From Microbacteriaceae bacterium X2B (GTDB lineage Bacteria > Actinomycetota > Actinomycetes > Actinomycetales > Microbacteriaceae), in assembly GCA_005502445.1 (NCBI GenBank), contig SCPB01000021.1, positions 1 through 39,582 of the forward strand: 39,582 nt of DNA, in the 5' to 3' direction. Numbering within the stretch: the stretch's first letter is position 1; every line of letters begins with the position of its first letter. Positions 16,299 through 36,087 of the stretch are shown here, piece after piece. The position numbers and the translations under genes are program-made. The notes beneath the pieces are model-generated. The model had not been told where the DNA came from. It ran no database searches and saw only the letters and a program-made list of their open reading frames with translations.

Positions 16299-16955
16299 TC
16301 ACGCTGGCACCACGTCCAGGTCGCCCAACAGCTCCCGCACACGCGCGGTGATCTCGTCGCGCACGCGGCGCACGTCCTCCAGTGGCAGTTCGGCCGGGTC
16401 TTCGAGCTCCCAATCCTGATACCGCTTGCCGGAGTAGACGGGACAGGCGTCCCCGCAGCCCATCGTCACCACGACATCAGCTGCCTGCACCACATCGTCG
16501 GTGAGGGGCTTCGGGAACTCGCTACGCAGATCCACGCCGAGCTCGGCCATGACCGTCACGACGGCGGGGTTCAACTCGTGCGCTGGCATCGAACCCGCGG
16601 AGCGGGCGCGGACACGGCCCCCGGAGAGGTGGATGGTGAGCGCAGCGGCCATTTGCGAGCGGCCTGCATTCTGCTCGCAGACGAAGAGGACCTCCGGCTC
16701 GTCGCGTTCGATCGCCCCCTTCGCTTGAGCCAACGCTGTCAAGCGGTCGGTGGCGAACCGAGTGGTCTGCGACGCGAGGTGGGCTTTGATCTTTGACGTG
16801 CGCAGGAGTCCGGTGTACGACTCGAGCACGTAACGTTCGACCGTCTCGGCGCTGAAGATGCCGGCGAACTTCTCGCTCAACTCGGCGGCCAGACGTTTCA
16901 GATACGCCTCCGGGTATGCGAGCCCCGGCATGCCCCTGCGCTCGAAGATTTCCAT
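16299..16955 (-). CDS. arsC: Arsenate reductase ArsC, thioredoxin/mycothiol-type fold with N-terminal three-helix bundle
   Basis: A 218-residue arsenate reductase with the low-molecular-weight tyrosine phosphatase fold. Residues 10-75 form an Ala/Leu-rich three-helix bundle, the dimerisation domain seen in actinobacterial ArsC. The catalytic P-loop is Cys93-Glu-Gln-Asn-Ala-Gly-Arg-Ser in VLFVCEQNAGRSQMAA (CX5R). SAGSMPAHELNP, FPKPLTDDVVQAADVVVTMGCGDACP and DWELEDP complete the ArsC pattern, separating it from true phosphatases. The cofactor is probably mycothiol/mycoredoxin in an actinobacterium (inference). The ATG at 16955 lies two bases after the stop of the truncated arsC, so it would be translated from that gene's leaderless mRNA. 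It reduces As(V) to As(III); no exporter is next to it. Confidence 0.93.
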   Translation of the reverse strand: MEIFERRGMPGLAYPEAYLKRLAAELSEKFAGIFSAETVERYVLESYTGLLRTSKIKAHLASQTTRFATDRLTALAQAKGAIERDEPEVLFVCEQNAGRSQMAAALTIHLSGGRVRARSAGSMPAHELNPAVVTVMAELGVDLRSEFPKPLTDDVVQAADVVVTMGCGDACPVYSGKRYQDWELEDPAELPLEDVRRVRDEITARVRELLGDLDVVPA

Positions 16956-16957
16956 CG

Positions 16958-17134
16958 CTAGACCCTGACGGGAAGGATCTCGGCGAGCAGCGCCTCGCTT
17001 CGGCCATTGACGTGGTCACGGATCGACCTCATTCCGTCGAAGAACTTGCCCGTCGAGTCGACGAGGTTCCCATCCATCTGCCAGCGACCAGCGTCGCTGA
17101 TGCAGACCAGGAGGACTGTGAACGTTTCGGTCAT
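16958..17134 (-). pseudogene. Internally deleted arsC (58-codon remnant that keeps the CX5R loop)
   Basis: This 58-codon frame begins MTETFTVLLVCISDAGRWQM, which matches the start of single-domain ArsC proteins (VLFVCxxNAGRSQM). It keeps Cys12 and Arg18 of the CX5R loop. It then jumps to DSTGKFFDGMRSIRDHV and ALLAEILPVRV, which match the last helix of ArsC. About 70-80 central residues, including the TMGCGDACP segment, are missing while the frame is kept. This reads as an in-frame deletion of a former arsC. It can hardly be an active reductase, but it is intact as a short ORF, starts 7 nt after a TATATT -10 box, and ends 2 bp before arsC, so it may now act as a translated leader. The family match is by eye. 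Confidence 0.7.
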
Positions 17135-17141
17135 GCTCACA

Positions 17142-17147
17142 AATATA
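17142..17147 (-). promoter_or_regulatory. -10 box of the truncated arsC-arsC operon (leaderless)
   Basis: TATATT on the minus strand is followed by 7 nt and the ATG at 17134. The operator at 17145-17160 overlaps it. The spacing is identical to that of the arsR promoter at 23407-23412. Confidence 0.6.
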
Positions 17148-17160
17148 GACGACTGTCTAT
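17145..17160. promoter_or_regulatory. ATAGA-N6-TCTAT operator before arsC unit
   Basis: ATAGACGACTGTCTAT is a perfect inverted repeat of ATAGAC/GTCTAT around a 4-bp centre. It covers the -10 box of the minus-strand arsC unit, so a bound repressor would block it. The other copies are at 17374, 17429 and, in weaker form, 23410. The ArsR protein encoded at 23070 is the likely binder (inference). Confidence 0.65.
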
Positions 17161-17373
17161 GGAATTGCGAGTAGGCGAAGCTGACCATGCCCGTCGACGT
17201 CCACGATGAGCTCGAAAGTTCCTACGCGATTCCGGGCCCATTCGCGGGGCGAAGACTCCACGCGTCCTGGCGACCGTGGAGCGATCCAGCTGGCCGGCGC
17301 CTGGCTCGCGTTGAAGCATCGACATGAATCTATGCAAAGGACACTGCTTACGTTCGGCGACCTCCATCATCAT
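17161..17373. other. Intergenic stretch without a recognisable gene
   Basis: Between the arsC and pstS control sites lie about 210 bp with lower G+C than the flanks. Short open frames exist on both strands but none has a ribosome site, a start near a promoter, or a family resemblance. It may be the remains of a gene lost when the two divergent units were brought together. I see nothing functional in it beyond the operators at both ends. Confidence 0.4.
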
Positions 17374-17389
17374 ATAGATGTTTCTCTAT
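17374..17389. promoter_or_regulatory. Distal ATAGA-N6-TCTAT operator upstream of pstS
   Basis: ATAGATGTTTCTCTAT has the same outer arms as the arsC operator. With the next base on each side the pattern is TCA-n-ATAGA-N6-TCTAT-n-TGA. The following bases TTGAATGTTGG nearly repeat those after the proximal site (TTGAACGCTGG), so the two pst sites look like a 55-bp tandem duplication. Confidence 0.6.
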
Positions 17390-17400
17390 TTGAATGTTGG

Positions 17401-17433
17401 CGTCACGTCGTGTTCACTTGGCGTTCAGATAGA
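17401..17433 (+). promoter_or_regulatory. PHO box (three 11-bp direct repeats) upstream of pstS
   Basis: Three consecutive 11-bp units in register read CGTCACGTCGT, GTTCACTTGGC and GTTCAGATAGA. The middle one fits the actinobacterial PhoP direct-repeat unit (GTTCA followed by pyrimidines and G/C) at ten of eleven places; the outer two are weaker. This placement before pstS is where a phosphate-starvation activator site is expected. The last unit runs into the operator at 17429, so activator and repressor would compete. Confidence 0.6.
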
Positions 17434-17452
17434 CAAACTTCTATTTGAACGC
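17421..17452. promoter_or_regulatory. 32-bp palindrome with the proximal ATAGA-N6-TCTAT operator
   Basis: The core ATAGACAAACTTCTAT (17429-17444) sits inside longer arms, GCGTTCAGATAGA and TCTATTTGAACGC. These pair over 13 bases with a single G-U if transcribed. It is the most symmetric of the four copies. It starts inside the PHO box and ends about 67 bp before the pstS start. A TCTATT at 17440-17445 could be the pstS -10. It can act as an operator or, less likely, as an RNA hairpin; there is no T-run. Confidence 0.6.
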
Positions 17453-17518
17453 TGGTCGTCGACTGGCAAATCACATTCTGGCCGGCGGCTCCTCGCCGCC
17501 GAAGAAGGGATCACGAGA

Positions 17519-18475
17519 GTGTCCACGAAATTCAGCAAGACCGCAGCGTTCACCGCAACGTTCGCTGCCGCAGCTATCCTTCTCACCGCCTGCAGCGGGC
17601 AATCCGCCACTCCGGGCGAGAGCGAGTCCGGGTCGTCGCTGTCCGGTGCGGTCACCGCCGACGGCTCCTCGACCGTCGCTCCCTTGGCCGAGGCTGCCGC
17701 GGACTTCTTCCGCGACATCGAGCCGGGCGTGAACGTGACCGTGGCGACATCGGGCACCGGTGGAGGCTTCAAGGCATTCTGCGCGGGCGAAACCGACATT
17801 TCTGACGCGTCCCGCCCGATCAAGGACGAGGAAGCCGCCGAGTGCGAGGCCAACGGAATCGGGTACACCGAGATCGTCATCGCCAACGACGGTCTTGCCG
17901 TCGTAGTGAATCCGGAGAACGACTGGGCTGACGACCTCTCCGTCGAGCAGCTCAACAAGATCTGGGCTCCCGAGTCCGAGGGCGTCGTCTTGAGCTGGGC
18001 CGATGTGGACCCGTCGTTCCCGGATGTCCCGCTCGCCCTTTTCGGAGCCGGCACCGATTCAGGAACGTTCGACTACTTCACGGACGCTGTCAACGGAGAA
18101 GAGGGTGCGATTCGCGCTGACTACAGCCCCTCGGAGGACGACAACATCACGGTCCAGGGAGTCGCGGGTGACCCCGGGGGCATCGGCTTCTTCGGCCTGA
18201 GCTATGTCGAGGAGAACGCCGACCTGATCAAGGCGGTCACCGTCGAGGGGGTCTACCCGACTGTGGAGACAGTGCAGGACGGCACGTACACGCCGCTCGG
18301 CCGTCCGCTGTTCATCTACGTCGCCAACGCCTCGTACACAGACAAGCCGCAGGTGAAGGCATTCGTCGACTACTTCGTCTCCGAAGCCGTCACGATCGCC
18401 GAAGCCGCCTTGTTCGTCCCGCTGACGGACGAGCAGATCACCGTCGCCTCCGAAGAACTCGCCACCCTCGGCTAG
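17519..18475 (+). CDS. pstS: Phosphate-binding lipoprotein PstS
   Basis: A 318-residue substrate-binding lipoprotein of the high-affinity phosphate ABC transporter. The signal peptide MSTKFSKTAAFTATFAAAA ends in the lipobox LLTAC with lipidated Cys25. Phosphate-site segments are visible: DGSSTVAPLAEAAA, TSGTGGGFKAFCAGETDISDASRPI and GAGTDSGTFDYFTDAV, the last a Ser/Thr/Asp-rich loop. The GTG at 17519 was chosen because it begins the signal peptide and follows AAGGGA; the frame is open upstream through the operators. It heads pstSCAB and the regulator gene. Control probably combines the PHO box with the ArsR-like operators. Whether it discriminates phosphate from arsenate strongly, as in some arsenate-resistant bacteria, cannot be read by eye. 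Confidence 0.95.
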   Translation: MSTKFSKTAAFTATFAAAAILLTACSGQSATPGESESGSSLSGAVTADGSSTVAPLAEAAADFFRDIEPGVNVTVATSGTGGGFKAFCAGETDISDASRPIKDEEAAECEANGIGYTEIVIANDGLAVVVNPENDWADDLSVEQLNKIWAPESEGVVLSWADVDPSFPDVPLALFGAGTDSGTFDYFTDAVNGEEGAIRADYSPSEDDNITVQGVAGDPGGIGFFGLSYVEENADLIKAVTVEGVYPTVETVQDGTYTPLGRPLFIYVANASYTDKPQVKAFVDYFVSEAVTIAEAALFVPLTDEQITVASEELATLG

Positions 18476-18531
18476 ACAACAGAGATCACGCTGGCAGCAG
18501 TCACTCACCCGGAAACAGGAATCACCACCAG

Positions 18532-19500
18532 ATGACGACAGCCGTCAGCGCGGGCGGTCCGGCCACAACGCCGGACCGCCCGACTCCCCATACCGAACCC
18601 GCATCCCGCTTCGCTGGCAGGCCCCGCTACGGCGAGCTCGTCATCCGGCTGCTCCTGCGAATCGCTGCTGCTGTCACCGTCGTCACGACGGTGGGCATCC
18701 TGATCGCTCTCGCGATTCCCTCCATCGGCTTCTTCGCCGAGGTGCCGGTGCTCGAGTTCCTGTTCGGAACCCGCTGGGCCCCGCGATTCGCCGATGCCTC
18801 TTTCGGTGTCGTACCCCTCGTCACCGCAACCGCCTGGACCACCCTCCTCGCGCTGCTCGTGGCCGTTCCGCTCGGTCTGGGCGCGGCAATCTTCCTCGCC
18901 GAGTACGCGAGTCCGCGGTTGCGTAAAGTGCTCAAACCGATTCTCGAGATACTCGCCGGAATTCCCACCGTGGTGTACGGGTTCTTCGCACTGCAGTTCA
19001 TGCAGACGACAGTCTTCCGTGACTGGGCGAACCTGCCCACAGGCGCGTTCAGCGTGCTAGCCGCGGGCCTGGTCATGGGGGTCATGATCGTTCCCACCAT
19101 CGCCTCGATCTCAGAAGACTCCATGTCGGCCGTGCCACAGGCCATGCGCCAGGGATCCGCCGCGCTGGGCGCCAACCGCATGCAGACCACGCTGCGAGTC
19201 GTCTTCCCCGCCGCGTTGTCGGGCATCGTCGCCGCGATGGTTCTCGGGGTATCTCGTGCCGTCGGCGAGACGATGATCGTCGCCATCGCCGCCGGCAACC
19301 AAGCCCGGCTGGTCGCCAACCCGCTCGAGGCGGGGCAGACCATGACCGGCTTCATCGCGAATGCCGCACTCGGCGACTCGCGCGTGGGTTCGATCGAGTA
19401 CGACACGCTGTTCGCGGTCGGCCTCCTGCTCTTCCTGATCACCCTGCTGATCAACTTCATCAGCATTCGCTTCGTTCGCAGATTCCGGGAGGCATACTGA
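18532..19500 (+). CDS. pstC: Phosphate ABC transporter permease PstC
   Basis: A 322-residue inner-membrane permease, one of the two membrane subunits of Pst. Six membrane segments can be placed, the first at about 40-65 (LLLRIAAAVTVVTTVGILIALAIP) after a Thr/Pro-rich cytoplasmic tail. The ABC-permease EAA loop lies around AVPQAMRQGSAALGANRMQTTLRVVFPAALSGI. GIPTVVYGFFAL and the late stretch VLGVSRAVGETMIVAIAAG are typical of PstC. The ATG at 18532 lies 56 bp after pstS. The stop overlaps the pstA ATG (TGATG). Codon use and G+C are lower than in the flanking genes, as in the whole island. Confidence 0.95.
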   Translation: MTTAVSAGGPATTPDRPTPHTEPASRFAGRPRYGELVIRLLLRIAAAVTVVTTVGILIALAIPSIGFFAEVPVLEFLFGTRWAPRFADASFGVVPLVTATAWTTLLALLVAVPLGLGAAIFLAEYASPRLRKVLKPILEILAGIPTVVYGFFALQFMQTTVFRDWANLPTGAFSVLAAGLVMGVMIVPTIASISEDSMSAVPQAMRQGSAALGANRMQTTLRVVFPAALSGIVAAMVLGVSRAVGETMIVAIAAGNQARLVANPLEAGQTMTGFIANAALGDSRVGSIEYDTLFAVGLLLFLITLLINFISIRFVRRFREAY

Positions 19501-20414
19501 TGCGCACGCTCGGGGGAACGATCGATGGCGCGATCCGTCCCGAACGCCCCCTCGCCTCGGGCACCAATGGGGAACGTCGCCCGGCCCCTCTGACCTTCCT
19601 CGTGTTGCTCTGGCTGAGCCTCGTCGTTGCCTTCGGGGTTCTCGTGACCCTCATCGTCACGATCATCATCGATGGGCAAGGGCAGTTCACCGGGCGCCTG
19701 TTGAGCGAGTACCCGGCATCATCCCCCGATCGCGCCGGCGCCCGCCCAGCGATCCTCGGCTCAGCTTGGGTGATCGCGACCACGGCAATCATGACGATCC
19801 CGCTCGGAATCGCCGCCGCCGTCCACCTCGAGGAGTTCGCCGACAAGAGGAACTGGTTCAACCGGATGATCGAACTCAACGTCCAGAACCTGGCCGCCGT
19901 GCCTTCCATCGTCTACGGACTGCTCGCCCTCGCCTTCCTCTCCCTGCTCGGCGTACGAGACAAGAACATCGTCATCGGCGGCGCTCTTGCGCTGTCGCTC
20001 CTGATCCTGCCGGTGATCATCATCGCCACTCGCGAGGCATTGCGCGCCGTGCCGACGGAGATCCGCGAGGGTTCACTCGCCCTCGGCGCCACGCAGTGGC
20101 AGACCACGTGGCGTCAGACGCTGCCTTCCGCCGTGCCCGGCATCGCGACGGGTTCGATCCTCGCCCTGTCGCGGGCACTGGGAGAAGCGGCACCGTTGCT
20201 CGTCCTCGGTGCGCTCGTGTTCGTGAGCTTCGACCCCAGTGGCATCCTGAGCGGCTACACGACCCTCCCCATCCAGATCTTCAACTGGACAGGCCGCCCG
20301 CAGGAAGGCTTCCACCAGCTCGCCGCCGCAACCAGCGTGCTGCTGCTCGGTGTTCTCGTGCTCATGAACGGGCTCGCGATCTACATCCGCAACAGATTCC
20401 AGAAACGGTGGTAA
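19500..20414 (+). CDS. pstA: Phosphate ABC transporter permease PstA
   Basis: A 304-residue permease and partner of PstC. The first membrane helix is at about 33-58, after a basic cytoplasmic tail. The EAA-loop region reads [33 protein letters not shown], and [17 protein letters not shown] is the PstA form of the conserved GIP/VPSIVYG motif. The ATG overlaps the pstC stop. pstB follows after 4 bp. Function: phosphate uptake across the cytoplasmic membrane, powered by PstB. Confidence 0.95.
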
Positions 20415-20418
20415 CCCG

Positions 20419-21303
20419 ATGATCGATAGAGCCGGCGAGAAGATCGAGAGCATCGTGCCTCACGAGGGCCCCGGAGTCCGAATAAACGCCCGTCCTGCTG
20501 ATGGCTTTCTGCCCGACGAGCCGCGCGGCATACTGCAGTGCGAGAACGTCGACGTCTACTACGGCAGCTTCCGGGCGGTTACGGGCGTCGACCTCAAGTT
20601 CGGACTCCACGAGATCACCGCCCTCATCGGCCCGTCAGGTTGCGGCAAATCCACACTCCTGCGGTCGCTCAACCGCATGAACGACCTGGTCGACGGCGCC
20701 CGGGTCGAAGGGAGGGTGCTCTTCGACGGCGAAGACATCTACGGCAGCAAGGTCGACGCGATCGAGGTGCGCCGTCGCATCGGCATGGTCTTCCAGAAAC
20801 CCAACCCCTTCCCGAAGTCCATCTACGACAACATCGCCTACGGGCCGCGGGTCACAGGTATGCGCGTCGACAGCATGGACGATCTGGTCGAGGAGGCGCT
20901 GACGAAGGCCGCCCTCTGGGGTGAGGTCAAGGACAAACTCAAGCAATCGGCCTACAGCCTCTCCGGTGGCCAGCAGCAGCGGCTCTGCATCGCGCGCACC
21001 ATCGCGGTGAAGCCGGACGTGATCCTCATGGACGAGCCATGCTCAGCCCTCGATCCGATCGCCACCGTACGCATCGAGGATCTCATGCACGAGTTGCGCC
21101 GGGAGTACACGATCGTGATCGTCACCCACAACATGCAGCAGGCCGCCCGCGTTGCCGATCGCACCGCATTCTTCACCGCATTCGCCGACGAGGGCACCGG
21201 CGATCGCACCGGCGTGCTCGTGGAGTTCGGCAAGACCACCCAGATCTTCGAGCACCCGACCGACCAGCGCACCGAGGACTACATCAGCGGACGGTTCGGA
21301 TGA
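20419..21303 (+). CDS. pstB: Phosphate ABC transporter ATP-binding protein PstB
   Basis: A 294-residue ABC ATPase. Walker A is GPSGCGKST at 71-79, the Q-loop [14 protein letters not shown] is typical of PstB, the signature LSGGQQQ is at 181-187, Walker B is VILMDEP at 201-207, and the switch His is in IVIVTHNM. The first 35 residues are an extra N-terminal extension before the usual start of the fold. An acidic 8-residue insertion ([11 protein letters not shown]) sits in the C-terminal strand region where shorter homologues have a tight turn. The stop overlaps the next gene's ATG by 4 bp (ATGA). Confidence 0.96.
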
Positions 21304-22001
21304 ACCTGACCCATTCGACGATGCGCGGTTCGGTCAAAATCGTGGCCGTCGGAAACCTCGACCTGATCGCGCGGGGACGACCAGCAGAGTTCCGGCACCG
21401 CGGGCTGACGCTCGCCACCCGGCCGACGGCGATGGCGGCGCTGCTCGAGGTAGGACGCGATCCCGATTCGATCGTGCTCGTACCGACGAATCTCAACGAC
21501 ATGCCGCTGACGGAGTTCGTCGACATTCTTCACTCCCTGGCTCATGTCCCGGTCATAGCAGGCATCGTCCCGGGCTGTTCGGCGCAGGCGGTGTCAGAGC
21601 TCTTCGACCACGGCATCTCGAGCACTGTCGCGTTGCCGACCAGTCCCGGTCGACTCGCGGATGCGGTTCGGGCCTCACGCACACCGGAGCAGACGGAGGA
21701 ACTGGTCATCGAAGTCGGCAATCTCACCCTCGACGACGCGCGGCACCGGGTGACCTGGTTCGAAAAGGAGGTCACCCTGGCGCCCAAGAACTTCGAGATC
21801 CTCCGCTTCATGCTCGTGGCTCATCCCCGCGTGATTCCGCTGCAGGAGTTGATGAAGCACGTCGGCGACAATCCGCAGAATCGTGCGGTACGCGCACGGG
21901 TCGCGATCGGGCGACTGCGGGCGGCATTCTCGGATGCGGAACCGCGCCATGACACCCCGATCGAGACGGTGCACCGAATCGGATACCGTCTGCGCCTCTA
22001 A
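21300..22001 (+). CDS. PhoB/OmpR-type regulator with a receiver-like domain lacking the phospho-acceptor
   Basis: A 233-residue protein. Residues 139-231 are a clear OmpR/PhoB winged helix: [31 protein letters not shown], then [11 protein letters not shown] and [12 protein letters not shown]. Residues 12-125 have the rhythm of a receiver domain ([40 protein letters not shown]). However, the Asp expected at the end of strand three is replaced by the VPTNL segment, and the Lys of strand five is absent (ALPTSP in place of the usual KP motif). It is therefore unlikely to be switched by a histidine kinase, and no kinase gene follows. As the last gene of pstSCAB it may be an autoregulator of the pst operon sensing a ligand or partner instead. 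The ATG overlaps the pstB stop. Confidence 0.8.
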
Positions 22002-22027
22002 CCACCTGCCACCGCATCGAGGGTGGT
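22001..22027. terminator. Possible hairpin between convergent units
   Basis: ACCACC (22001-22006) can pair with GGTGGT (22022-22027) just after the regulator stop, in the 81-bp gap to the convergent ArsR::ArsC gene. No T-run follows, so this is only a weak candidate for a terminator. Confidence 0.3.
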
Positions 22028-22082
22028 GATCGATCCGCGCGAGCGGGTGGTCGTCGCCCACAAAGACTGGGCACGGATCCTG

Positions 22083-23066
22083 TTATGGTCGGTCGGAGCC
22101 CCGCTGAAGGTTCATCCCGTCGAGCATGCTCTTCACCCGGGAGTAGACGTCATCGCGGATCTGGCGCACCTCCTCGATCGGCCTGCCGACGGGATCCTCG
22201 ATCGACCAGTCCATGTACTGACGTCCCGGGTAGATCGGGCACGCATCGCCGCAACCCATCGTCACCACGTAGTCGGCAGCCTGCACGACTTCGTCGGTGA
22301 GCGGCTTGGGGAATTCGGCAGCCAAGGGGATGCCGATCTCGTCAAGAGCGTCAATCACCGTGGGATGCACGGCGGATGCCGGGGCCGACCCTGCCGTCCG
22401 GACGTGAACTCTGTCGCCGGCCAGGTAGCGGAGAATCGCGGCCGCCATCTGCGATCGGCCAGCATTCTGCACGCACACGAACAAGACCTCCGGCGTACCT
22501 CGCAAAACGAGCCCTTTGGCTGTGGCGAGAGCGCTGAGCCGGTCGGTCGCGAATCGGGTCGTCAGCGAGGGAAGGAAGCGATCGATGTGGGCTCGTTCGG
22601 AAAGCAGCGCATAGCTTTCACCCACGTACCTCGCAACCGTCTCGGGTGAGAAGTAGGAACTGAATCGATAGGCAAGGGTTTGGGCGATCCGAGCAGCGAC
22701 CGGCGGGAGGTCGGCGGGTGACGTCCCGACCGCAATGTTCACCGGTGTCGCGCCCTGCGCGCCGCTCGCCAGCAGCCGACCAAATCGGATCCAAGCGTCC
22801 GCGGTCAGTTGGTACGTTCCCGCGCTGGTCCGGCTCAACAGGCCGGCGCCCTCGAGCGCGTTCAATGCGTCCACGAGGCTCTCTTGGCCGGGAACGTCCA
22901 TGACGCGGGCCACGAAACCGAGCCCGCCCTCTTCGTCAGGTGCGCTCGCGAGTGCGCTCAGGACCCGCAGCCGGAACGGATCGGTGAGCACCGAGATCTG
23001 CTCTGCGCGGGCGACTGCGGATTCGGTGTCCAGAGGACGGCCGATCCGTCGAGGCGCTTCACTCAA
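22083..23066 (-). CDS. ArsR-like winged helix fused to arsenate reductase ArsC
   Basis: A 327-residue three-part fusion. Residues about 14-105 form an ArsR-like winged helix (ISVLTDPFRLRVLSALA, then LVDALNALEGAGLLSRTSAGTYQLT) without any Cys. Residues about 118-188 are the three-helix bundle seen in the island's other ArsC. Residues 192-320 are a full reductase with P-loop Cys198 in VLFVCVQNAGRSQMAA, SAGSAPASAVHP, the TMGCGDACP segment, DWSIEDP and the terminal helix IEEVRQIRDDVYSRV. It could both bind DNA or partner with ArsR and reduce arsenate; the dual role is inference. The start is TTG at 23066 after GAGGTGA, three bases past the arsR stop; no better start lies nearby. The C-terminal ArsC half is clearly similar to the 16299 copy, so one may derive from the other. 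Confidence 0.88.
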   Translation of the reverse strand: MSEAPRRIGRPLDTESAVARAEQISVLTDPFRLRVLSALASAPDEEGGLGFVARVMDVPGQESLVDALNALEGAGLLSRTSAGTYQLTADAWIRFGRLLASGAQGATPVNIAVGTSPADLPPVAARIAQTLAYRFSSYFSPETVARYVGESYALLSERAHIDRFLPSLTTRFATDRLSALATAKGLVLRGTPEVLFVCVQNAGRSQMAAAILRYLAGDRVHVRTAGSAPASAVHPTVIDALDEIGIPLAAEFPKPLTDEVVQAADYVVTMGCGDACPIYPGRQYMDWSIEDPVGRPIEEVRQIRDDVYSRVKSMLDGMNLQRGSDRP

Positions 23067-23069
23067 TCG

Positions 23070-23399
23070 TCACCTCAGAAGGTCGATGATCTCGTCCCTG
23101 CGGCCGGGGGCGATGGCGTGCCAAACATACTTGCCTCGCTGATTGCGGATGAGCACGCCGTCGTCGACGAGGATCCGCAGGTGATGCGTGACCGTGGGCT
23201 GAGTAAAGCCGAGAGCGGCAGCGAGGTCGCCGACCGTCACCTCTTCGTCTGCGGCACCGACGATCATGCTGAGCAGTTGAAGCCTCGTGGGATCGGCCAC
23301 CGCGCGCAGGGTCCGAGCGAGCGTCTCGGCAACGCTGCGCTCGAGCGGAGCACCAGGATGCGCGGGCGCGTATTCGCTGTCACGAGCGGGAACGGCCAT
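23070..23399 (-). CDS. arsR: ArsR/SmtB-family repressor without cysteines
   Basis: A 109-residue winged-helix repressor. The fold is clear: LARTLRAVADPTRLQLLSMI, then EVTVGDLAAALGFTQPTVTHHLRILVDDGVLIRNQRGKYVWHAI. Where arsenic-sensing ArsR proteins have the ELCVCDL cysteine pair, this one has EVTVGDL, and the whole protein has no Cys. Either it senses arsenite in another way or its ligand differs. It heads the arsR > ArsR::ArsC operon and starts at ATG 23399, 7 nt after a TAAACT -10 overlapped by an operator-like site. It is the likely binder of the four ATAGA-N6-TCTAT-type sites (inference). Confidence 0.9.
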   Translation of the reverse strand: MAVPARDSEYAPAHPGAPLERSVAETLARTLRAVADPTRLQLLSMIVGAADEEVTVGDLAAALGFTQPTVTHHLRILVDDGVLIRNQRGKYVWHAIAPGRRDEIIDLLR

Positions 23400-23406
23400 G
23401 CTCTGA

Positions 23407-23412
23407 AGTTTA
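23407..23412 (-). promoter_or_regulatory. -10 box of arsR (leaderless)
   Basis: TAAACT on the minus strand is followed by 7 nt and the arsR ATG, the same distance as at the truncated arsC. No ribosome site is present. The operator-like site at 23410-23425 covers its upstream half. Confidence 0.6.
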
Positions 23413-23425
23413 GCCGACTGACTAT
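23410..23425. promoter_or_regulatory. Weaker copy of the island operator before arsR
   Basis: TTAGCCGACTGACTAT shares the CGACTG centre and the TAG/CTA arms with the site at 17145-17160, and lies at the same distance (11 bases) from the start codon. Read on the minus strand, the 29-base stretch from operator to ATG agrees with the arsC leader at 23 positions, so the two promoters are related by descent. Confidence 0.55.
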
Positions 23426-34517: not shown

Positions 34518-35186
34518 TCAGCGCGAGAGCGACCAGCCGGCCTGCTTGACGAGAACGTGCCCGCGCTCGGTCGACAACCGCAGCCACGATCCGGAGGCGA
34601 ACTGCTCGACGGGGTCGTCGCCGAGGAACCCGAGGCTCAGCGCCGCGAAGGCGACACCGGCCGGCACGTGGTCGAGTCCGTCGATGGGCCGACCCCAGAC
34701 CTCGCTGCGCACGCGGTGCACGAGCTCGGCGCCGAGCCCCTCGGGCACCGCCTCGGCGATCTCGTCGATGCCCGCGCGCGCGGTGGATTCCAGCAGCGCC
34801 GCCTCGATCGGCTGCATACGCTGCCAGCCGCCGCGGGGCGGCGAGATCGCCGCCCACACCACGGTGTTGACGGATGTCGGCATCGCGATGGGGATGCCGC
34901 CCTCCGTCGCAGAGGCGAGCGCGGCATCCACGCGCGCCTGCAGCGATCGCAACGGCACGACGACATCGACGTCGTCGCCGCTCGCCTCGAGGGTGCGCAG
35001 TCCGAGAACGGTGGGGCCGCGGTCGAGCAGACCGCGAGGGTGGATGACCGCGACGTAGACGGCGAGCACGCCCGAGTCGATGATGAGCCGCACGGCGGCG
35101 CCCTCGTCGAGGCGCGCGGCACGCCCGAGCATGACCTGCAGGTCGTGCCCGGCGGTCGCGTCGGGAAGGGTGAAGACGCTCGACAT
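34518..35186 (-). CDS. Conserved hypothetical protein
   Basis: A 222-residue protein that I do not recognise. It is soluble, with no signal peptide or membrane segment. The N-terminal half has beta-rich stretches (AAVRLIIDSGVLAVYVAVIHP, DVDVVVPLRSLQARVDAAL), then a Pro/Gly loop (ISPPRGGWQRM). The second half is helical, and the end is a Trp/Arg-rich strand pair (SWLRLSTERGHVLVKQAGW). There is no Cys and no obvious catalytic motif. The ATG at 35186 lies 8 nt after a TAGTCT box shared, in overlapping form, with the divergent thioesterase promoter. Codon use matches the flanks, so it is a resident gene. Confidence 0.75.
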   Translation of the reverse strand: MSSVFTLPDATAGHDLQVMLGRAARLDEGAAVRLIIDSGVLAVYVAVIHPRGLLDRGPTVLGLRTLEASGDDVDVVVPLRSLQARVDAALASATEGGIPIAMPTSVNTVVWAAISPPRGGWQRMQPIEAALLESTARAGIDEIAEAVPEGLGAELVHRVRSEVWGRPIDGLDHVPAGVAFAALSLGFLGDDPVEQFASGSWLRLSTERGHVLVKQAGWSLSR

Positions 35187-35193
35187 CGATCCC

Positions 35194-35200
35194 TAGACTA
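35194..35200. promoter_or_regulatory. Overlapping back-to-back -10 boxes of two divergent leaderless genes
   Basis: TAGACT (35194-35199, plus) ends 6 nt before the thioesterase GTG. TAGTCT (35200-35195, minus) ends 8 nt before the hypothetical-protein ATG. The two hexamers share five base pairs, so only one strand can be opened by polymerase at a time. Confidence 0.6.
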
Positions 35201-35205
35201 CGGGC

Positions 35206-36087
35206 GTGACCGATGAGACCGCCCCTCCCGATCCCGTCGCCGCGATGCTGCAGGCGCTCACCCTGACCGACACGGGCGCGCGCACGACCGAGGACATCTT
35301 CACCGCCCCCAGCCAGTGGATGCCGCAGGGCCGCGTCTTCGGCGGGCAGGTCATGGCGCAATCGGTGCTCGCGGCGATCCGCACGGTCGAGGGCGACCGA
35401 TTCATCCACTCGATGCACGGCTACTTCCTGCGGCCCGGCGACGTGAACCTGCCGATCACGTTCTCGGTCGACCGCATCCACGACGGGCGCTCGTTCTCGA
35501 CGCGGCGGACCCAGGCGTTCCAGAACGGCGTGCCGATCCTGTCGATGATCGCGTCGTTCCAGGACGTCGACCCGGGGCTCGACCACCAGGCGACGATGCC
35601 GGAGGGCATCCCCCAGCCGGAGGACCTGCCGAGCGCCTCCGAGGTGCTGCACGAGCTCGACCACCCCGTCGCGAAGTTCTGGGCGACCGAACGCCCCTTC
35701 GACCTGCGGCATGCGAACGGCCACATCTACTTCGGCGGCGACCGCGAGCCCGTGGCCCGGCAGGCCGTGTGGCTGCGCGCGCTCTCGCCGCTGCCCGACG
35801 ACGAGAACCTGCATCGCGCCGCTCTCGCCTACGCGAGCGACTACTCGCTGCTCGAGCCGATCCTGCGCCGCCACGGCGCCTCCTGGGCGACGCCCGGGCT
35901 CAAGATGGCGAGCCTCGACCACGCGATGTGGTGGCACCGCTTCGCGCGCGTCGACGACTGGCTCTGCTACGTGCAGGAGTCGCCCACCGCGATCGGCGGC
36001 CGCGGGCTGTCGATGGGGCGCATCTTCACGCGCGACGGCGTGCTCGTCGCGAGCGTCGCGCAAGAGGGCATGGTGCGCCTGCCCTGA
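35206..36087 (+). CDS. tesB: Acyl-CoA thioesterase II (TesB family)
   Basis: A 293-residue double-hotdog thioesterase that hydrolyses acyl-CoA to free acid and CoA. The TesB pattern is clear: GRVFGGQVMAQSVLAA, IHSMHGYFLRPGDVNLPITFSVDRIHDGRSFSTRRTQAFQ in the first hotdog, and MASLDHAMWWHRF, with the catalytic Asp, then SPTAIGGRGLSMGRIF in the second. The length is standard. The start is GTG at 35206, leaderless. Its position after the branched-chain acyl-CoA clusters suggests, but does not prove, CoA release from dead-end acyl-CoAs. Confidence 0.93.
   Translation: MTDETAPPDPVAAMLQALTLTDTGARTTEDIFTAPSQWMPQGRVFGGQVMAQSVLAAIRTVEGDRFIHSMHGYFLRPGDVNLPITFSVDRIHDGRSFSTRRTQAFQNGVPILSMIASFQDVDPGLDHQATMPEGIPQPEDLPSASEVLHELDHPVAKFWATERPFDLRHANGHIYFGGDREPVARQAVWLRALSPLPDDENLHRAALAYASDYSLLEPILRRHGASWATPGLKMASLDHAMWWHRFARVDDWLCYVQESPTAIGGRGLSMGRIFTRDGVLVASVAQEGMVRLP

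Follow-up and report, generated by a model that had tools for sequence, protein, structure and literature searches.

A cassette in the 39,582-nucleotide contig of Microbacteriaceae bacterium X2B analysed here (the window) encodes a second, horizontally acquired Pst transporter that is probably under dual control, by phosphate shortage and by arsenic, as its promoter sequence suggests. On the best reading, the pump would be produced under phosphate shortage in the presence of arsenic.

Gene content of the cassette

The first-pass annotation had described ArsC, an ArsR::ArsC fusion and ArsR genes around pstSCAB, and this gene set was confirmed between positions 16299 and 23399 (Table 1). PstS (as a longer ORF from 17378), PstC, PstA and PstB pass their NCBIfam cut-offs, so that all four transporter subunits are present; the GTG start given for pstS was picked to fit the lipoprotein signal. 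The PhoB-like protein had been called kinase-less and, by eye, the ORF list of the cassette indeed holds no kinase gene, and no aio or phoU gene either. Features that the first-pass annotation had passed over are the four operators ahead of pstS, the PHO-like repeat, the 58-aa ArsC-like ORF and the cysteine-free state of ArsR.

Table 1. Genes and predicted control elements of the cassette (window positions)
Feature	Position	Strand	Remarks
ArsC	16299..16955	-	PF21234 N-domain and LMWP domain; CX5R and GCGDACP present
58-aa ORF, ArsC-like without the middle; likely ArsC remnant, judged by alignment	16958..17134	-	C-terminal part aligns to resident ArsC; N-terminal likeness by eye
Operator ATAGA-N6-TCTAT, perfect	17145..17160	.	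Closest to the leftward ArsC unit
Operator, one mismatch	17318..17333	.	Pattern match
Operator, perfect	17374..17389	.	55 bp upstream of the operator at 17429
PHO-box-like direct repeat GTTCA-N6-GTTCA	17412..17427	+	Likeness to PHO box
Operator, perfect, ArsR-type	17429..17444	.	One base past the PHO-like repeat; composite promoter element
pstS, lipoprotein phosphate-binding protein, PstS_2 type	17519..18475	+	318 aa
pstC	18532..19500	+	TIGR02138 above cut-off
pstA	19500..20414	+	TIGR00974 above cut-off
pstB	20419..21303	+	TIGR00972 above cut-off
PhoB-like orphan OmpR/PhoB-type regulator	21300..22001	+	Pfam, structure model
ArsR-like domain::PF21234::Cg_ArsC1'-like arsenate reductase fusion	22083..23066	-	No Cys ahead of P-loop
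ArsR-family repressor, zero cysteines	23070..23399	-	Pfam HTH_5, NF033788

The cassette is an insertion

As proposed from the sequence alone, the region differs from its surroundings both in G+C content (0.61-0.66 inside versus 0.67-0.77 outside, in 1-kb windows) and in codon use, with a GC3 of 0.75-0.86 in eight island genes versus 0.91-0.98 in six flanking genes within the window. The globin described on the left was found by Pfam, together with an M1 peptidase and MscS, while the leucine operon described on the right stands only as a by-eye reading of leucine catabolism, the Pfam matches there being CitE-like, MaoC and acyl-CoA dehydrogenase. In 10 fetched loci of the same genus the gap between the globin and CitE genes measures 8 bp to 2.2 kb, leaving no room for the island, which is absent from all ten; in an eleventh relative CitE was found and a globin match was not. 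The region is thus an insertion, and its gene order is not common to all close relatives. Island-type PstC is patchily distributed (16 of 299 family genomes at E 1e-60), and related pst operons occur on plasmids (nine among 72,556 records), with ars genes close by in four of the five plasmid contexts examined. The empty site, the composition shift, the patchy distribution and the plasmid-borne kin bear out the earlier suggestion of transfer as a unit, and support the view of the pst cassette as a horizontally acquired second Pst transporter beside the resident one.

A composite element ahead of pstS

Three perfect operators were observed in the window, where 0.01 would be expected. Genome-wide there are five, the other two lying at a second ars locus, one ahead of an ArsR::ArsC fusion gene that diverges from a MIP channel gene, the other ahead of an ArsC gene; a reversed-pattern control gave one. 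We predict that the ArsR-type sites in the pst promoter region, beside the ars genes, act as operators, and the link between arsenate and phosphate drawn in the first-pass annotation is strengthened by their being common to ars and pst genes. Next to one of them lie two 11-nt direct repeats starting GTTCA, and the accessible text on the PHO box describes GTTCACC in 11-nt repeats (PMC4415409); by likeness to Streptomyces, the site may function as a PHO box in this genus. In front of the resident pstS stands a PHO-like repeat without an operator.

A scan of 84,980 species genomes with the composite DNA pattern alone returned 36 loci, 35 of which sit 85-263 bp upstream of an island-type PstS match on the same strand, all in named Actinomycetota. 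An ArsR::ArsC fusion was found at every one of the 12 composite loci having at least 5.6 kb downstream. The architecture, which had been thought unusual, is no rarity, recurring at 35 named loci, and both ArsR::ArsC fusions and arsenic-island pst operons are already in print. In a set of pst loci identified through their proteins and having enough flank, the operator (at most one mismatch) is present in 11/11 ars-linked loci, window included, versus 0/9 unlinked ones (Fisher 6e-6, or 1e-5 without the window, counting as independent loci that are not). The unlinked count covers nine of 14 loci, leaving out four on short contigs (L057, L059, L060, L062) and one with its promoter cut off (L063), and the protein set overlaps the pattern scan in six of the 11 linked loci (L020=L105, L022=L090, L023=L076, L028=L099, L067=L082, L072=L080). 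In all 11 linked loci the PHO-like repeat, with 0-2 mismatches, ends one base ahead of the operator.

One locus counted as unlinked, L058, has ATCGG-N6-TCGAT at the operator position, and Pseudonocardia plasmids carry a sequence similar in form there, so that admitting operator dialects would blur the contrast between linked and unlinked loci. We considered a single origin of the operator-bearing pst operons and did not find one: operator presence requires at least six changes on the PstC tree (starred branches). This tree includes flagged long branches, and its 15 rows scored as lacking the operator comprise, among others, the resident PstC and the five loci that are short or cut. The PHO-like repeat with its adjoining predicted ArsR-type operator is conserved ahead of the same pst clade in Actinomycetota. 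Among the matches listed from the open-licence literature, we recognised none on the cassette, on an actinobacterial PHO box with ArsR, or on a cysteine-free ArsR.

Regulators of the cassette

The window ArsR has the winged-helix domain and no cysteine, and thus does not have the textbook As(III)-thiol site. Cysteine is also lacking in 22 of 24 ArsR genes adjoining a fusion, both exceptions being accounted for, while the other ArsRs at the surveyed loci have CxC in 20 of 20 cases; L020/L105, L072/L080 and L028/L099 enter these counts twice each. The fused reductase domain is a candidate sensor. In the fusion, the N-terminal part matches the ArsR profile at 98% and no Pfam HTH model, and the ArsC part is 46% identical to Cg_ArsC1'. 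By sequence, the protein has the helical N-domain, LMWP fold, CX5R and further cysteine of that type; all NCBIfam arsenate reductase equivalog models stay below their own cut-offs. We predict a Cg_ArsC1'-type arsenate reductase. A fusion in Microbacterium A33 is reportedly named ArsRC2.

We expected arsR autoregulation by the same operator and mostly did not find it: an operator (at most one mismatch, within 300 bp) precedes just four of 21 cysteine-free arsR genes, and the best one upstream of the window arsR carries three mismatches. The CxC ArsRs appear to use an ATCGA-type operator, judging from best matches to that other pattern, which had no control of its own.

The PhoB-like protein is modelled (pLDDT 86, pTM 0.53) as a receiver fold and a winged helix, with Foldseek matches to KdpE, MtrA, RpaA and GlnR. 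Its receiver lacks the phosphorylatable Asp, the acidic pair and the Lys; what we take to be the canonical positions hold P62/T63, G18/N19 and L112. No response regulator of the genome scores above the PhoB model cut-off, which only two of 14 control genomes exceed. The idea that this gene belongs to the ars half of the cassette was dropped, as it also lies beside pst operons without ars genes (L054, L064, L066). It is further present without adjoining ars-kind fusion genes in L026 and L027, the latter with one weak ArsR-like match.

Proposed mechanism and alternatives

Under phosphate shortage, PhoP or the PhoB-like protein of the cassette would activate at the PHO repeat, while the cassette ArsR, either jointly with the ArsR::ArsC fusion or in its place, would keep the promoter blocked until arsenic has entered. 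Through the same operator, the ArsC genes in the cassette and at the resident ars locus would be switched on. Selective uptake of phosphate would be regained through the pump when arsenate competes at the resident transporter. As neither Acr3 nor ArsB was found in a genome search, we propose that arsenite may leave by the putative MIP-family channel encoded next to the resident ars genes, which is nearer to aquaporin Z than to the aquaglyceroporin Gla, both matches being far below cut-off.

Genomic islands collect unrelated cargo and ars genes are not in view beside some pst homologues, so pst and ars genes could be neighbours by chance without shared control; we regard this as hardly credible, because 35 of the 36 composite-pattern matches lie ahead of pstS, which speaks strongly against it, and because the operator follows ars linkage (see above). 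More serious, if still improbable, is a repressor responding to phosphate or to another signal than arsenic, with the ars genes merely in the same stress unit: LMWP domains generally bind phosphate-like oxyanions and the ArsR is free of cysteine, but at other ars loci, ArsC and ArsR::ArsC genes are likewise preceded by operators, and the likeness of the fusion to Cg_ArsC1' likewise tells against it. We also think it quite unlikely that the pump serves arsenate import or arsenic chemistry rather than phosphate supply. Co-regulation through operators common to pst and ArsC would agree with such a role, as would the published model, in its accessible text, of Pst1 bringing As(V) into Agrobacterium (PMC7533571); against it, the PstS is an ordinary PstS_2, several lineages have homologous operons without operator or ars genes in view, and both Pst systems of Halomonas GFAJ-1 are described as phosphate-specific in the available part of PMC5930303. 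Counter to dual control itself, the same part reports unchanged arsenic resistance after deletion of either GFAJ-1 pst operon, and the pst genes of Rhodococcus BCP1 are, from a partial source, not induced by As(V).

Relation to known systems

ArsR-controlled pst is already known in Agrobacterium, and the new point would be the composite of PHO-like repeat and ArsR-type operator. In A. tumefaciens 5A, as far as the accessible texts go, a second pst operon also lies by ars genes (ars1-pst1/pho1) and apart from a resident pst2; ArsR1 represses pstS1 and phoB1 through two sites between these divergent genes, the motifs lying, with one exception, away from the -10/-35 region (PMC7965956, PMC3834237), and a joint ArsR1/PhoB1 model has been published (PMC7533571). 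The cassette differs in the operator that abuts a PHO-like repeat, in the fusion, in the cysteine-free ArsR and in the missing aio, phoU and kinase genes. The arsenic island of GFAJ-1 likewise holds a pst operon, with a second elsewhere, but has Acr3, ArsH and ArsJ-type genes, and the available part of the source describes no ArsR control of pst (PMC5930303). Actinobacterial ArsR-ArsC fusions similarly unite repressor and reductase in one chain, with no pst link or composite promoter described in the parts available (PMC6514093, PMC6205960). Thermus thermophilus TtSmtB, another ArsR-family protein with an incomplete As(III) thiol site, answers arsenate better than arsenite; it keeps one of three cysteines, and the accessible text mentions neither a reductase fusion nor pst (PMC5658604).

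Tentatively, and with more doubt than confidence, we suggest a new kind of arsenate sensor, in which the cysteine-free ArsR would bind DNA and ArsR::ArsC, paired with it or alone, would detect arsenate directly via the reductase active site. Sensor and detoxifying enzyme would then be one chain and, with the PHO box, the promoter would be a true AND gate reading the arsenate-to-phosphate conflict itself. The widespread arsenic-linked cysteine-free ArsR raises the question of how arsenic is sensed without the textbook thiol site. Outside Agrobacterium, phosphate pumps on arsenic islands figure mainly as co-located genes in the literature cited here, as far as its accessible parts go. At 35 loci of Actinomycetota, a coupling of phosphate and arsenic is predicted by a single 33-base element.

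Organisation and insertion of the island

Gene orientation divides the island at 16299-23399 into three units, as the first-pass annotation had described for ArsC, pstSCAB, ArsR::ArsC and ArsR (see table), and all four Pst subunits passed their NCBIfam cut-offs. The claimed departure from the flanks was also borne out, both for G+C content in 1-kb windows (0.61-0.66 within the island, 0.67-0.77 outside) and for codon use (GC3 of 0.75-0.86 in eight island genes versus 0.91-0.98 in six flanking genes). The 58-aa ORF is ArsC-like at both ends with the middle missing and could be the remnant of a tandem ArsC. The genome assembly itself comprises 2.57 Mb in 113 contigs and is 99.98% complete.

Positions of island genes, operators and related features
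Feature	Sequence	Position	Direction	Remark
ArsC	window	16299-16955	leftward	unit 1
58-aa ArsC-like ORF	window	16958-17134	-	upstream of ArsC
Operator	window	17145		perfect
Operator	window	17318		one mismatch
Operator	window	17374		perfect
Operator	window	17429		perfect
pstSCAB run, then PhoB-like gene	window	17519-22001	rightward	unit 2
arsR and arsR::arsC pair	window	23399-22083	leftward	unit 3
GTTCA-N6-GTTCA, reversed	own genome, L008 (contig C94)	13745-13760 (about 57744-57759)	-	perfect
PBP_like_2 match	own genome, L003/L009 (contig C20)	about 34964-35281		third in genome, weak
Cysteine-free fusion	L087 (retrieved locus)	5998	+	

Counting our own genome, the left-flank globin was present in 19 of 21 same-genus genomes and the right-flank CitE-like gene in 12 of 21. 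Because these two genes lie only 8 bp to 2.2 kb apart in the 10 relatives retrieved, too close for the island to fit, the island is an insertion, in keeping with the proposed transfer as a unit. Since both the length of this gap and the sequence inside it differ across the genus (L129-L138), the spot may be an insertion hotspot.

A shared operator and a composite promoter

Upstream of pstS, the gap contains ATAGA-N6-TCTAT three times in perfect form, where 0.01 would be expected in the window, and a fourth time with one mismatch. Genome-wide there are five such sites, compared with one for the reversed-pattern control, the remaining two belonging to the resident ars locus on contig C94, with the resident pstS some 4 kb away. 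One of these precedes the gene of an ArsR::ArsC fusion, which diverges from that of a MIP-family channel, and the other precedes an ArsC gene, so that the motif is most simply read as an operator of this ArsR group. The operator at 17429 is preceded, at a distance of one base, by GTTCACTTGGCGTTCA, a PHO-box-like repeat; the Streptomyces PHO box is given as GTTCACC in 11-nt repeats in excerpts of PMC4415409. For the resident pstS, a PHO-like repeat was present and an operator absent. Directly upstream of the resident ArsC operator there is a perfect reversed repeat, and PHO control of that gene is possible.

One set of pst loci was found through PhoB-like or PstC similarity. An operator with at most one mismatch preceded pstS in all 11 loci with ArsR or ArsR::ArsC in the retrieved stretch (window included), each time one base after a PHO-like repeat with 0-2 mismatches, and was absent from all nine unlinked loci with a usable promoter, five of the 14 being left aside for short contigs or a cut promoter. 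Operator pairs are 55-56 bp apart in seven linked loci and 27 bp apart in L028; L065, L069 and L071 showed a single operator adjoining pstS. Counting against a clean split, unlinked L058 bears ATCGG-N6-TCGAT at the operator position, and a comparable dialect occurs on two Pseudonocardia plasmids, near ArsRs carrying a cysteine pair (CxC). On a PstC tree of 55 rows, operator-selected loci included, the operator label requires nine changes, at least six of them on well-supported branches (shuffled labels average 13.3), and the operator therefore appears to have been gained or lost repeatedly.

Across plasmids L147-L151, ATCGA-type dialects adjoin PHO-like repeats in Pseudonocardia, where a CxC arsR directly follows the PhoB-like gene. 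In two same-genus genomes (L024, L025) a PhoB-like orphan directly follows operator-bearing genes for ArsR::ArsC and ArsC that lie next to the resident pst; neither genome yielded an island-type PstC in the family search (E 1e-60).

Scanning 84,980 species genomes for GTTMA-N6-GTTCA-N-ATAGA-N6-TCTAT, expected by a hand estimate about once per 257 billion bases of even composition, returned 36 loci. In 35 of them the same strand carries an island-type PstS match that starts 85-263 bp downstream; the other, a Staphylococcus record, had no pst match. Where at least 5.6 kb downstream was available, the fusion was present in 12 of 12 loci and a PhoB-like match in 11, and 17 of the remaining 23 had some ars-type match in the retrieved part. 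The arrangement that the first-pass annotation had singled out thus recurs near pst, and with 35 pstS loci its supposed rarity did not hold.

Of 299 genomes of the family, 16 had an island-type PstC (E up to 1e-60), as had 11 of 347 genomes of the order, two being common to both; it was also found on 9 of 72,556 plasmids. Ars genes lay near the pst operon in four of five plasmid contexts examined (Cellulosimicrobium, Streptomyces, two Pseudonocardia) and were absent there on the Rhodococcus opacus plasmid. On the Cellulosimicrobium plasmid there are two perfect operators at a distance of 56 bp from each other, together with a PHO-like repeat, and the plasmid also encodes an ArsR lacking cysteine and a fusion that is not annotated. 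Relatives with small genomes or fragments (L055-L060) have a pst of the same clade and show no ars genes in the sequence in view; in L057 and L059 a second pstS precedes that pst.

Cysteine-free ArsR and the fusion protein

The window ArsR has no cysteine, and the same holds for 22 of the 24 ArsR-type genes that lie no more than 250 bp from a fusion; one exception is itself a fusion and the other owes its cysteine only to a longer start choice. CxC is present in each of the 20 further ArsRs of these loci. A perfect ATAGA operator lay within 300 bp of none of 23 CxC genes (20 arsR, three fusions), and one with a single mismatch near one, versus four of five cysteine-free fusions of resident type, the fifth standing behind an arsR. 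Among the 20 CxC arsR genes, 16 had a best match of the form AT[CT]GA-N6-TC[AG]AT.

In the fusion model (pLDDT 77, pTM 0.54), an N-part with its helices in the order of ArsR is joined to a helical bundle and an LMWP reductase domain. Its best solved match is the arsenate reductase Cg_ArsC1' (46% identity), with no ArsR among the 50 structural matches listed, and Pfam detected no HTH; the resident fusion, unlike it, scores as HTH_5. The N-part aligns to the cassette ArsR profile with 98% probability, except that QPTVTHH of the recognition helix is missing, consistent with the two proteins dividing the work and DNA binding being left to ArsR. Nearly all fusions retain intact LMWP motifs. Since the known As(III) thiol site is not available to an ArsR without cysteine, the reductase domain of the fusion may be the sensor; that arsenate can act as effector of an ArsR is shown by TtSmtB (excerpts of PMC5658604). 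The L087 fusion has an intact P-loop and no GCGxxCP motif detectable by script, and is possibly a sensor-only copy. In the PhoB-like protein the receiver fold lacks the residues for phosphorylation, and the winged helix is close to those of KdpE, MtrA and GlnR.

Probable joint control by phosphate and arsenic

Parts of this picture have precedents: in Agrobacterium 5A, ArsR1 represses pstS1 and phoB1 (excerpts of PMC7965956, PMC3834237), a joint ArsR1/PhoB1 model is outlined in PMC7533571, and ArsR-ArsC fusions appear in PMC6514093 and PMC6205960, likewise excerpted. The open-licence literature searched gave no description of the composite promoter, its Actinomycetota spread or the cysteine-free ArsR. 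Running against the mechanism, As(V) did not induce pst in Rhodococcus BCP1 (excerpt of PMC6514093), and pst deletions left arsenic resistance unchanged in GFAJ-1 (excerpt of PMC5930303).

Arsenite would leave, perhaps, through the MIP channel, considered because Acr3 and ArsB were searched for and neither was found; the channel's score is closer to aquaporin Z than to an aquaglyceroporin, with either model far short of its cut-off. Low phosphate would activate pstS through the PHO repeat, the ArsR group would block the promoter until arsenic is present, and ArsC would reduce arsenate. Given the shared operators, the composite promoter and the ars linkage evident in these sequences, we believe that control of a second Pst pump by phosphate plus arsenic is the best explanation, and quite a probable one.
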